Assembly: GCF_001050235.1 (NCBI RefSeq)
Contig: NZ_DF967972.1
Coordinates: 2,555,901 to 2,619,900, forward strand
DNA: 64,000 bases
Reading direction: 5' to 3'
Source of the DNA: Longilinea arvoryzae
GTDB taxonomy: Bacteria > Chloroflexota > Anaerolineae > Anaerolineales > Anaerolineaceae
Under the pieces are notes generated by a model. That model did no database searches. It saw only the letters and a list, made by a program, of their open reading frames with translations, and was not told where the DNA came from. Positions 9,578 to 13,708 of this stretch are shown here, one piece after another. The translations under genes and the position numbers were made by a program. Position 1 is the first letter of the stretch; the number at the start of each line of letters is the position of its first letter.

Positions 9578-10867
9578 TCAATGGCCAAACAACACGGCGC
9601 CTACGCTTGCCACCGACGCCACGAATATTGCGACCGAGCCGGCGATGGCAAAATAGGTTTGAAACGGCTTGTTGACATGTTCCTTCATCACCCTGGGATT
9701 ACTGGTCAGGCGGATCAGGAAATAAAACACCAGCGGTAACATGACCGCGTTGATGCTTTGCGTGGTCACGGCCAATTTGAACAGGTTGATGCCCGGGAAG
9801 CAAACCACAACCGCGGCAATCAAGAGTTGGCCCAAAAAGATGATGTAGAACGTTTTGCTTTGTTTATAGGATGTATTCAGGCCGCCGGATAAGCCGAAGA
9901 ATTCCGAGAAAGCATAAGCGGTCGAGAGCGAAATGACGACGATGCCCATGAAACCGGCATTTAAAATTCCGATGGCAAACAATTCTCCGGCCAGGTTGCC
10001 GGCGAAAGGTTGAATCGCCATGGCCGCCTGCTCGCCCGATACCAGCTTGATTCCGTTGATGAACAGGGTGGACGCGGTCGCCACGATCATGAAGAATGAG
10101 AAGAAATCCGTCAGAAACGCGCCCATATAGGTTTCGAATTGCGAATACTGCAGGTTGCGATCCTCGATTTTCTTATCGAAGGCAAAGCTGCTGACGAAAA
10201 ACTGTCCCCAGGGTGTGATGGTGGTGCCCAAGACGCCCAGGCCGATGATCATATAATTGCGCAGATATTCCCGGGTGAACGCAACGCCGTGCGGGTAGGC
10301 CAGATTGCTTAATGCCATTCCCCAATCCGGTTTTGCTTTAATGGCCGAGATGATGTAGGTCAGGTAGAACAGGCACGAGAATAGCATCACCGATTGGGTC
10401 AATTTGTAATTGCCACGGGTGACGAAGAAGAAAATCAAGATGACCATGACGAACAACGCGGGAATGGCCGGGAGATGAAAGATGGATGCGGTTGTTCGTA
10501 TAGCCGACATATCCCCGATGATACAACCGATATTGGCAATCAAGAGCGCCAGGAAAATCAACAGGGCGGCCTTGACGCCGAATTTCTCACGGATCAAATC
10601 GGCCAGGCCGCGTTTGGTCACGACCGTCAGGCGAACGCCCATTTCCTGCGTGATGCCCAGCAGGATTGTGATGATTCCGAGCGTAAAAAGGATGGGATAC
10701 CCGAGCGTCGACCCGGCGATGGAATAGGTGGCGACGCCCGAAGCATCATTGTCTGCCATGGCGGTGATCGTCGCCGGGCCGAAAACGGACAGAAAGATCA
10801 GTACACGTTTTAATGTGCGCATGAGGATTTCTTTTTTGCTCAGGCGCACAGTCTGGTTCGTCAGCAT
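9578..10867 (-). CDS. Nramp-family divalent cation transporter, probably Mg2+-type (NRMT-like)
   Basis: A 429-residue polytopic protein with about 11 membrane segments and the Nramp fold. The first helix reads GPATITAMADNDASGVATYS where manganese transporters have DPGN followed by WAT; only the Asp is kept. The sixth helix reads TTITPWGQFF in place of the MPHN motif, so the methionine that selects transition metals is absent. These are the changes known for Nramp-related magnesium transporters, and its neighbours are an MgtE-like sensor and CorA. It is second in a two-gene minus-strand operon, 20 bases after the MgtE-like gene. An alternative start 15 codons in (MRTLKRV) is possible. Mg2+ specificity is inference. 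Confidence 0.87.
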   Translation of the reverse strand: MLTNQTVRLSKKEILMRTLKRVLIFLSVFGPATITAMADNDASGVATYSIAGSTLGYPILFTLGIITILLGITQEMGVRLTVVTKRGLADLIREKFGVKAALLIFLALLIANIGCIIGDMSAIRTTASIFHLPAIPALFVMVILIFFFVTRGNYKLTQSVMLFSCLFYLTYIISAIKAKPDWGMALSNLAYPHGVAFTREYLRNYMIIGLGVLGTTITPWGQFFVSSFAFDKKIEDRNLQYSQFETYMGAFLTDFFSFFMIVATASTLFINGIKLVSGEQAAMAIQPFAGNLAGELFAIGILNAGFMGIVVISLSTAYAFSEFFGLSGGLNTSYKQSKTFYIIFLGQLLIAAVVVCFPGINLFKLAVTTQSINAVMLPLVFYFLIRLTSNPRVMKEHVNKPFQTYFAIAGSVAIFVASVASVGAVLFGH

Positions 10868-10887: not shown

Positions 10888-12144
10888 CTAACGATAATAC
10901 CGCGGCAGGCGTTTCTTCCAGACCGTGGGAATGATCTTATCCAACGCGTCATCCGAAGTAACGATACCCTGAATGACGTTTTGTTCATCGATGACCGGGA
11001 TCGAAAGCAGGTTGTAACGGGCGATCATCTGCGCCACATGATCCTGATCATCCAGAAGCTGTACACTGGCCACGCGTTTGTGCATGAAATCGCTCACGAG
11101 TGCATCCGGCTGGGCGAAGATCAACTCGCTGAGTGAGAAAACGCCGAGCAGCTTTTCTTCCGAATCGATCACGTACACATAAAAGATCGGTTCCATCTCT
11201 GTGGCGTTCTCGCGTAAGTATTGAATGGTTTGTCCGGCCGTCAGGTCGGGACCAACCGTGGTGAAGTCGGTCGTCATGATACCGCCGGCCGAATCTTCGG
11301 GATAGGCCAGCAGCTTGCGAACGTCTTCGGCTTCTTCGCCTTCCATCATGCCGATCAAGATCTGGCTGCGTTCCTTGGGGAGCTCTGCCAGCAGGTCAGC
11401 GGCCTCGTCTGGCGACATTTCCTCCAGCACATCGGCGACCTTCTCATTGGGCATGTTCTCGACCAGACTGACCTGGAAGTCCTCTTCGACTTCCTCCAGG
11501 GTGTCCGCGAGCTGCTCGAGGTTCAACGACTCGAGTAGTTCATTGCTTTGCGAGCGGTTCATGTCCGAAAGGATATTGGCAATATCCGCCGGATGCAAAT
11601 CGGCCAGCTTGCCGCCGGGAACGCGCAGGCGCATGAATTGTTCGCGTGAGAACAACTCGACATCATCCCACGAGATGAAGCTGGTCTTGATGTCCTTGTT
11701 GACCAGTTTTAGAAAACCTTGCGCGATACCGCCCAGCCCGATACGGCGCAGGATCCCCATGGCGCTGATGTCGACGTTACTGGCGACGATGGAACCATTG
11801 ACCTGGACCAGTTCGATATCATTGACTCGCACCACGCGCACGTCGTCCGTATCGATGATTTGTTTGTCCAGCACGTCCTGAACCAGGAAGATATCCTTGT
11901 CGCCGGGAGTGTACACGTGGATATCATCCCGTCTGACATTCAACGGGATGCCGTGTGCAAAAAGGACGGTGATGTCCGAATAAGGCACCACCATTTCTTG
12001 TTTATTACGGCGAATAACGATCGCCACAACCACCGGGTGGGAGATTTCTGGTCGGGTCGTCGCAACCAGGTCTTGTAGCACGCCGACCTGCGCGCCATCC
12101 AGATCGGTGACCGGATTGCCGAGTAATTGACTCAGAAATGCCAT
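10888..12144 (-). CDS. Soluble PRC-barrel, MgtE_N and CBS-domain protein
   Basis: A 418-residue protein with three parts: an N-terminal PRC-barrel-like domain (about residues 1-75, LLGNPVTDLDGAQVG), an MgtE intracellular N domain of acidic helical repeats (about 180-290, LHPADIANILSDM, MSPDEAADLLAELP) and a pair of CBS domains (about 290-405). In the Mg2+ channel MgtE the N and CBS domains sense cytosolic Mg2+ and gate the pore. Here the membrane pore is entirely missing, and an Nramp-like transporter follows 20 bases downstream. I infer a detached Mg2+ sensor that gates that transporter. The ATG at 12144 has an ideal AGGAGG ribosome site; a TTG one codon earlier is less likely. Confidence 0.9.
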   Translation of the reverse strand: MAFLSQLLGNPVTDLDGAQVGVLQDLVATTRPEISHPVVVAIVIRRNKQEMVVPYSDITVLFAHGIPLNVRRDDIHVYTPGDKDIFLVQDVLDKQIIDTDDVRVVRVNDIELVQVNGSIVASNVDISAMGILRRIGLGGIAQGFLKLVNKDIKTSFISWDDVELFSREQFMRLRVPGGKLADLHPADIANILSDMNRSQSNELLESLNLEQLADTLEEVEEDFQVSLVENMPNEKVADVLEEMSPDEAADLLAELPKERSQILIGMMEGEEAEDVRKLLAYPEDSAGGIMTTDFTTVGPDLTAGQTIQYLRENATEMEPIFYVYVIDSEEKLLGVFSLSELIFAQPDALVSDFMHKRVASVQLLDDQDHVAQMIARYNLLSIPVIDEQNVIQGIVTSDDALDKIIPTVWKKRLPRYYR

Positions 12145-12277: not shown

Positions 12278-12345
12278 GAGAACAATCAGGCAGATGTTTA
12301 CTACGAGCCGGGATACTTTGGGTGAGAAAAATTACTTTGCCCCGT

Positions 12346-12459
12346 TCAATGGGACAAAAAAAGGAGGTTCTCACGCGTATCCTTGATTTTTATCGATCTC
12401 GATGGATCGTCTAGATCTGGCTCGAGTAAATCAGGGCCCGAATTATCGTCCGCGGACAC
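12346..12459 (-). CDS. Putative 37-residue acidic/proline leader peptide upstream of the Mg2+ operon
   Basis: A GTG start at 12459 follows a textbook ribosome site (AGGAGGTGAT, complement 12463-12472), and the frame ends in TGA at 12346-12348. After the start the peptide begins SADDNSGPDLLEPDLDDP, with seven Asp/Glu and three Pro in the first 19 residues, then turns basic (SRSIKIKDTR) and ends in a short hydrophobic tail. This resembles MgtL of enterobacteria, an acidic, Pro-containing leader peptide that makes the ribosome fall apart when Mg2+ is low. It lies about 200 bases upstream of the MgtE-like gene on the same strand. Translation and function are inferred; no homologue search was possible. 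Confidence 0.5.
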   Translation of the reverse strand: MSADDNSGPDLLEPDLDDPSRSIKIKDTRENLLFLSH

Positions 12460-12475
12460 GCGATCACCTCCTCTC
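12356..12475 (-). terminator. Possible attenuator: long hairpin over the leader ORF ending in U7
   Basis: On the minus strand the ribosome site AGGAGGT (complement 12466-12472) is exactly complementary to ACCTCCT (complement 12362-12368), followed at once by seven T (12356-12362). Further nested pairs are CGCGT/ACGCG (12458-12462 with 12374-12378), CCTGATTT/AAATCAAGG (12428-12435 with 12381-12389, one bulge) and CTCGA/TCGAG (12422-12426 with 12398-12402). The whole leader ORF lies inside this fold. Ribosomes translating the leader would disrupt it. It could act as a terminator or as a block on leader translation. Confidence 0.5.
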
Positions 12476-12775
12476 TATTCTTTGGTTTTTCTACAGCATA
12501 CCCAATTTCGTTTCCGTTTCTCATTCCAGCAGGTCAAGAATATCCGCTGAAATATTAAGAAAAGAACCTTTTACTGGATTTTACGTCTGCATTCTATCTT
12601 CTTAGACAGTAGATGTCAATAGATTGGTTCATAGTTTGCAGCTTAGTTAACTGGCTTTTTTGACGTTTGACGTTAAAATTGCTAGACAGATCTACTATCC
12701 AGAATTCTGACAACAACCGCTCGATTGGCCGGCCAGAACTCACCCAGATCTGATCCATCCTGCGGAGGTGGCGGC
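12476..12775. other. Divergent promoter region between the Mg2+ operon and corA
   Basis: No gene seen. It is AT-rich around 12540-12700. Candidate promoter parts include TTGACC (minus strand, near 12532) and a tandem TTTGACG TTTGACG at about 12659-12672 (plus strand), but I could not assign a convincing -10 partner to either. Both transcription units must start here. No M-box (Mg2+ riboswitch) consensus was recognised. Confidence 0.45.
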
Positions 12776-13708
12776 GTGATTTCAATTTACAAGAGCACAG
12801 AAAAAGGGCTGGAGTCGATCGAGGAGATCGTCAACGGCTGCTGGATCAATCTGACCGACCCGACCCCGGCAGAAATCGAAAAAGTGACTGCGTTGGGAAT
12901 TCCGCAGGATTTTATTACCTACCCTTTGGACGTCGATGAACGCGCGCGGACTGAACGCGAGGACGATGGCAAGATTCTGATCGTGATCAAGGTGCCGATG
13001 TACGTGGGGCCGACCGTCGACGTACCCTACACGACAATTCCGCTGGGATTCGTCATCACCGATACAGTGTTGGTCACGGTTTGCCGGCATTCGCATGAGA
13101 TCATCCAGGAATTTGCTTCCGGCCGGGTTCGCGGGCTTTCCACAGCCAAACGAAACCGGTTCATTCTCAAGGTGCTCTTATCGACGGCCAACAAATATCT
13201 GGCTTATCTGCGGGATATCAACCGCACCGTCGATGCTTTGGAAGACAAAGCGCAAAAGGCGATGCGAAATAAAGAAGTCTACGAACTTCTTAAATTTCAA
13301 AAGAGCCTGGTCTATTTCACCACGGCCCTGAAATCGAACGAACTGGTATTCGAGCGTCTTCACCGCACCCAATTGTTCAGGATGTACCCGGATGACGAAG
13401 ATTTGTTGGAGGACGTGATCACCGAAAACCAGCAGGCCATCGAAGTGGTCAATATCTCGAACAACATTCTCAGTTCGATGATGGATGCGTTCGCATCGAT
13501 CATCTCGAATAACCTGAATGTGGTCATGAAATTTCTGGCTTCGATCACGATCGTAATGAGCATTCCGACGATCGTAACCAGTTTTTTTGGCATGAACGTG
13601 GACCTGCCTTTCGACGGCTTCCCATTTGCCTGGCTTATTGTGATCGGCATCTCGGTCGGGGTTGGGGCGTTGGTGACCTTCATTTTCATGAAGCGGGATT
13701 GGTTCTAG
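12776..13708 (+). CDS. corA: CorA family Mg2+/divalent cation channel
   Basis: A 310-residue CorA protein. A large cytoplasmic alpha/beta domain (about 1-250, with the long stalk helix around 150-250) is followed by two C-terminal membrane helices and the signature Gly272-Met273-Asn274 (GMN) that forms the selectivity filter. The end is short and basic, as usual. I placed the start at the GTG at 12776, five bases after a strong GGAGGTG ribosome site; an upstream ATG at 12725 would add 17 residues unlike CorA. It is divergent from the MgtE-like/Nramp-like operon, so two Mg2+ uptake systems share one intergenic region. Confidence 0.95.
   Translation: MISIYKSTEKGLESIEEIVNGCWINLTDPTPAEIEKVTALGIPQDFITYPLDVDERARTEREDDGKILIVIKVPMYVGPTVDVPYTTIPLGFVITDTVLVTVCRHSHEIIQEFASGRVRGLSTAKRNRFILKVLLSTANKYLAYLRDINRTVDALEDKAQKAMRNKEVYELLKFQKSLVYFTTALKSNELVFERLHRTQLFRMYPDDEDLLEDVITENQQAIEVVNISNNILSSMMDAFASIISNNLNVVMKFLASITIVMSIPTIVTSFFGMNVDLPFDGFPFAWLIVIGISVGVGALVTFIFMKRDWF

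Follow-up and report, generated by a model that had tools for sequence, protein, structure and literature searches.

The window analyzed here, a stretch of 64,000 nucleotides from Longilinea arvoryzae, carries on its minus strand an operon whose first gene encodes MgtE_N and CBS domains (10888..12144) and which includes an Nramp gene of the NrmT (Mg2+) branch (9578..10867). The closest solved structure to the Nramp product is 7qia (E 5.5e-65), with NDA(S/G)G and TTI(T/A)PW stretches in common, and we take 7qia to be the NRAMP-related Mg2+ transporter of Eggerthella lenta. A transporter of this kind from E. lenta is the subject of a published study (PMC8806188). The MgtE_N gene thus stands beside a gene related to Nramp, and most closely to its Mg2+ branch, the composition of an NrmT operon; M-box control of NrmT operons that include MgtE_N genes has been described before (PMC4072509). 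The substrate of the window operon is likely, rather than certain, to be Mg2+, because one NrmT that lacked an M-box appeared to transport manganese (PMC4072509). A CorA-family gene (12725-13708, plus strand) lies divergent from the operon, and CorA-like sequence was found upstream of the operon in the relatives L021, L045 and L048 as well, which suggests that CorA beside an NrmT operon forms a recurring Mg2+ island.

The leader of this operon, about 440 nt when counted from the promoter-like site TTGACA-17-TAGAAT (12591..12619, minus strand; sigma-70-like, 11/12 consensus matches, with 1.0 such site expected by chance in the region), contains an unannotated ORF of 37 codons (12459..12346, minus strand) that runs from a GTG at 12459-12457 to a TGA at 12348-12346. 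Its translation starts with MSADDNSGPDLLEPDLDDPSRS and in full is VSADDNSGPDLLEPDLDDPSRSIKIKDTRENLLFLSH; the N-terminal half is acidic and proline-rich, with seven acidic residues and three prolines among residues 1-19 (the runs D4 D5, GPD, EPD and DDP), so that early acidic residues are adjacent or one apart, with prolines nearby. Its acidity is above that of most upstream ORFs (uORFs) of the relatives. The ribosome site AGGAGGTGAT (12463..12472, minus strand) ends 3 nt before the GTG; CCTCCTTTTTT occurs once in the window, where 0.04 occurrences are expected, and the motif AGGAGGTGATNGCRTG, with at most one mismatch, occurs in the 4.4-Mb genome only at this leader ORF. The initial annotation had described this ORF, its ideal ribosome site and its position before an Mg2+-transport operon, and all of this was confirmed, with the operon now identified as MgtE_N/CBS plus NrmT-type Nramp and its putative transport function assigned by family. 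A transcript start downstream of 12346 was also checked, and the promoter scan made no call downstream of the leader ORF in the window.

The ribosome site is also the 5' arm of a hairpin (H1), in which GAGGAGGU pairs with ACCUCCU; the 3' arm, ACCTCCT (12362..12368, minus strand), lies within the ORF and is directly followed by a run of seven U (12356..12362, minus strand), and a second stem of 9 bp, CGCGUGUCC:GGAUACGCG, is formed across the start codon. Folding bore out this nested pairing, which the initial annotation had read from the letters: the folding energy of the 141-nt segment is -47.3 kcal/mol, compared with an average of -37.7 for its shuffles (z -2.4; 3/200 shuffles as good), and pairing of the ribosome-site and start region with the 3' region of the uORF reaches -32.5 kcal/mol against -19.2 for shuffled sequences (z -4.2). 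H1 is no textbook terminator, since its loop of about 90 nt is coding and some of the seven U are themselves base-paired in the full stem. The terminator scan calls not H1 but a second hairpin, H2 (12335..12359, minus strand), whose loop contains or adjoins the stop codon of the uORF and after which the sequence reads TAATTTTTCT, with a short U tract; one such hairpin was found, where 1.0 is expected by chance in the region. No standard terminator was found about 35 nt past the stop of the window ORF, the hairpin over the stop codon being found instead. Between uORF and gene, at about 12247-12211 (minus strand), there is a long hairpin, CATTGTT..AACCTT..AAGGTT..AACAATG, with no U tract.

Acidic leader ORFs in related Chloroflexota

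Homologues of the MgtE_N gene were collected from the family, class and phylum of the window. Short acidic ORFs, for which the initial annotation had proposed a search in related Chloroflexota, were recovered upstream of MgtE_N genes in 61 relatives, at the same place and with divergent sequences; the two collections used sometimes contribute one and the same locus (e.g. L037/L085, L038/L084, L040/L089), and locus counts are not independent events. Acidic residues in these uORFs peak at position 2 (40/61) and position 4 (35/61), prolines are often present, and Asp and Pro codons are enriched early; as the 61 were chosen partly by eye for acidity and may include near relatives, this count is informative about the positional peak rather than about acidity. 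The unbiased test of acidity was made on the best ORF in each of 128 non-redundant leaders, whose net acidity of 2.2 exceeds the 0.14 of dinucleotide shuffles, the -0.3 of the opposite strand and the -0.9 of sequence lying further upstream (P 1e-13 to 1e-16).

On the evidence of alignment, the window ORF is an MDADSS-type uORF leader, a type defined here. The window shares GGAGGTGAT.GC.TG..CGC.GA.GATA.TTC with L044/L047, the ribosome site, start and acidic N-terminus being alignable from the ribosome site to about codon 8 with synonymous differences, and it has Ser at the position where MDADSS relatives have Asp2. The strict motif AGGAGGYNNNNGCRTGGAYGCNGAYAGY had no match in 396 genomes of the class; a loosened motif gave six matches in 301 genomes of the order, five of them just upstream of an MgtE_N gene. 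In other lineages this position is occupied by different acidic ORFs (MQLEETGTSKDVPPLS, MENxTNSGSDSYPGEDQAQPPS, ILESESLSADDQPDPASIKG, GSEPASDDQSGPAS, SIDSDSSxGDQRR, LDLDPDP and VDEPAEPPSTRR). Elsewhere in the phylum, the leaders of L157 and L161/L162 contain the acidic uORFs MDDDHSHLCSLTEEGTFEAGH and MEQKIPDD(E/D)(V/E)EPP(D/E)QPKIARE, the latter about 390 nt upstream of the gene. No catalogued acidic uORF was found in more than half of the leaders examined, e.g. L003, L004 and L012. Within the family of the window, L003, L004, L009 and L012 have no evident leader uORF, and L004, L009 and L012 have a short leader with a promoter-like site near the gene; uORF regulation has apparently been lost or replaced in these four.

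A comparison of synonymous and non-synonymous changes, which had been proposed as a check on the ORF, gave in-frame pN/pS of 0.20-0.55 for most uORF groups and mostly 0.7-2 in shifted frames, and these rates show, at the level of sequence, that most groups are under frame-specific purifying selection. In the MQLEETG group the first 18 codons give 0.26, in the MDADSS group codons 2-5 give 0.28, the DSDS group stands at 0.25, and two uORF pairs have 0.20 and 0.41; the MEN_GSDS group (0.86) and a three-sequence GSEPA subgroup (2.1) gave no clear coding signal or a contrary one. The length of the MDADSS ORF is steady at 32-48 codons and that of shifted frames varies widely. Selection acts mainly within the first 5-18 codons, with free divergence after about residue 16, an N-terminal constraint that would fit a signal carried by the nascent chain better than a product that folds. 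Frame conservation and a constant genomic place would also be accounted for by a small protein that works in trans, perhaps on the transporter, in the manner of the small regulators known for other Mg2+ transporters, and the conserved mycobacterial M-box uORF Rv1805A, of unknown role (PMC12810186), could be taken as a parallel; such a product is nevertheless quite improbable, as the N-terminus keeps only a charge pattern ahead of the freely diverging part, the peptides are sequence-unrelated between clades, and they look hydrophilic rather than membrane-spanning. Among the tested outcomes that would have spoken against the initial annotation (an ORF without conservation, no coding signal, or the later transcript start), none was observed.

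M-box riboswitches (RF00380) precede the MgtE_N gene in 19 relative loci among those scanned, and at most of them the uORF follows directly, before the gene. Short ORFs that combine a strong ribosome site with an MDADSS-like start lie behind most M-boxes and also in many M-box-free leaders. The M-boxes of the relatives support an independent link to Mg2+; the window has no RF00380 match above cut-off, and none was detected in its genome. An alternative to Mg2+ sensing is attenuation that responds to charged tRNA (availability of Asp, Glu or Pro) or to translation stress in general; the early Asp and Pro codons speak for it, as does the fact that reading translation is common among uORF attenuators. 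We regard this as very improbable, given that the operon encodes an Mg2+ transporter, that its leaders often have M-boxes and that the acidic spacing matches known destabilising motifs.

Two further features were observed around the M-boxes. A stem-loop, CCGCGCCTGG..CCAA..GCGCGG, recurs past the M-box terminator and just ahead of the ribosome site of the uORF in L031, L033, L034, L036, L053 and L061, and had no Rfam match in these six leaders; the L031 copy reads CCGUGC/GCACGG, a change that appears to be compensatory. The MDADSS-type leaders of L104, L105 and L107 have ATA at the start-codon position (AGGAGGTGATCGC[CT]ATAGACGCGGATCAC), possibly a deliberately weak start; an M-box was found in L104 and L105 and none in L107, and their relatives L094/L098 have a TTG start.

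Ribosome-site pairing and termination

In most minimum-energy folds of MDADSS leaders, the partner of the ribosome-site and start segment is the 3' part of the ORF. Over 22 such leaders the pairing has a mean z of -1.92 (P 8e-6), and true pairing partners beat swapped partners (P 0.002), these P values being approximate because related leaders are not independent. The results argue for a lineage-specific complementarity, predicted from sequence, of the ribosome site and the 3' part of the ORF. Neither the seven-U run nor H2 was seen in the relatives: no U tract came after the enclosing hairpin there, and beyond the ORF there is usually a distinct terminator. An intrinsic terminator lies after the uORF stop in 37 of the 61 leaders, at a median of 35 nt past the stop and 52 nt before the gene, an arrangement with which full translation of the uORF is compatible, because a ribosome at the stop codon would not cover the terminator. 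Over these 37 leaders, no consistent antiterminator was found between the uORF or spacer and the terminator arm (mean z -0.27); such pairing is individually strong in L010, L011, L026 and L118, and in the MQLEETG clade a hairpin overlaps the terminator arm. Switching of the anti-ribosome-site arm to the ribosome site of the main gene was not above chance (mean z -0.10).

H1 as a general terminator of the family was rejected, the relatives lacking a U tail. The window ORF might still act mainly as RNA, with the ribosome-site hairpin and the seven U forming a terminator that translation prevents and the peptide sequence being irrelevant. The exact pairing with ACCTCCT ahead of the U run invites this reading and the pairing recurs in relatives, but we consider it unlikely: acidity and frame-specific selection across divergent uORFs are not needed by such a model, the relatives have another terminator in place of a U tail, and the loop is very long. 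Moreover, the competition between leader translation and a terminator-like hairpin proposed in the initial annotation is unlikely as stated, because ribosome drop-off at low Mg2+ would turn the importer operon off, which is the wrong sign. H2, which like H1 overlaps the ORF, would give the same wrong sign if it were a plain terminator held off by translation.

The window leader could also be a degenerate relic that has lost its M-box and terminator and has no present function, in keeping with the lack of a detected M-box in the genome, the missing standard terminator, the replacement of Asp2 by Ser, and the absence of the operon from the same-genus genomes G070 and G071. Against this, the strong promoter-like site and the ideal ribosome site argue for maintenance, as do a pairing of the best class (z -4.2) and an acidity greater than in most relatives, so that we hold a relic to be most improbable.

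A probable translational Mg2+ sensor and the closest known systems

Taken as a whole, we think it probable that the leader encodes a cis-acting acidic peptide serving as a translational Mg2+ sensor of the NrmT-type operon and working like MgtL and MgtQ. Of the Mg2+-sensor reading in the initial annotation, the recurrence of the ORF type, the hairpin and the coding signal, and the M-boxes of the relatives, stand in its favor; the seven-U run as a shared part does not hold. The input to the sensor would be how well ribosomes hold the acidic and proline-rich nascent chain. At adequate Mg2+, the ribosome would finish the ORF, keeping the hairpin at the ribosome site from closing before another ribosome loads, and its release about 35 nt before the terminator would let the terminator form, leaving the operon off. 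At low Mg2+, the ribosome would drop off within the acidic and proline segment, the downstream portion of the ORF, now free, would close on the ribosome site and prevent reloading, and the ribosome-free fold would let polymerase through, turning the operon on. That drop-off leads to read-through is inferred because operon identity and the M-boxes set the sign, namely on at low Mg2+; the Mg2+ dependence of the window leader is likewise inferred. In many relatives, the uORF would be a second checkpoint behind the M-box.

The closest known system is MgtL of mgtA in Escherichia coli and Salmonella, also a short leader ORF before an Mg2+ transporter, with acidic positions 2 and 4 and prolines. In MgtL, the early acidic residues Glu2 and Asp4, one apart, provoke ribosome dissociation, and premature dissociation at low Mg2+ switches the mgtA operon on (PMC11282234). 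The acidic peaks of the uORFs at positions 2 and 4 match these residues and are close to Asp2 and Glu5, which MgtQ requires (PMC8092293). Unlike MgtL, the Chloroflexota uORFs belong to another phylum and another transporter, most relatives have intrinsic terminators, and the MDADSS-type ribosome site folds on the ORF's own 3' end. BLASTP gave no alignment of MgtL to the window ORF at E<=100; because no sequence homology was found, the window ORF would work like MgtL without being a member of its family. MgtQ, in the mgtC-mgtB intergenic region of Salmonella, likewise has acidic residues right after the start codon and serves an Mg2+ transporter, and its aborted translation alters alternative stem-loops (PMC8092293). 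However, MgtQ acts within an operon, on translation of the gene that follows it, whereas the Chloroflexota ORF lies in a 5' leader, usually before a terminator, and its pairing with the ribosome site of the gene is not supported.

The M-box-controlled NrmT operons (PMC4072509) are of the same operon type, and many relatives have an M-box directly before the uORF; the window and its genome differ in having no detected M-box. In Mycobacterium tuberculosis, the pe20 M-box is followed by a conserved uORF, Rv1805A, with a conserved ribosome site in an Mg2+-responsive operon (PMC12810186), but the peptide is reported to be genus-specific, the mechanism involves Rho-dependent termination and a translational platform, and no acidic destabilising leader is described there (PMC12810186). 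An M-box with a uORF is thus already known in Mycobacterium (PMC12810186), as are acidic leader ORFs in enterobacteria; the combination of M-box and acidic uORF, the NrmT target, the recurrence in Chloroflexota and the self-sequestered ribosome site had no description in the largely open-access literature searched.

More tentatively, and as a possibility we would not yet favor, such leaders may be self-gating throughout the phylum, with the acidic peptide destabilising the ribosome at low Mg2+ and the ORF RNA hiding its own ribosome site unless it is fully translated, which would form an all-or-none switch that in many species sits behind an M-box. If this were true, one operon would sense Mg2+ in two ways, once as a ligand and once through the stability of the ribosome. 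The self-folded ribosome site offers a switch design open to direct testing. A pattern of acidic positions 2 and 4, then prolines, provides a search rule for such leaders elsewhere. As sequence-unrelated acidic leader ORFs are found at another Mg2+ transporter in another phylum, often in tandem with an M-box, our results suggest that destabilisation of the ribosome by acidic nascent chains is a general and repeatedly used gauge of Mg2+.
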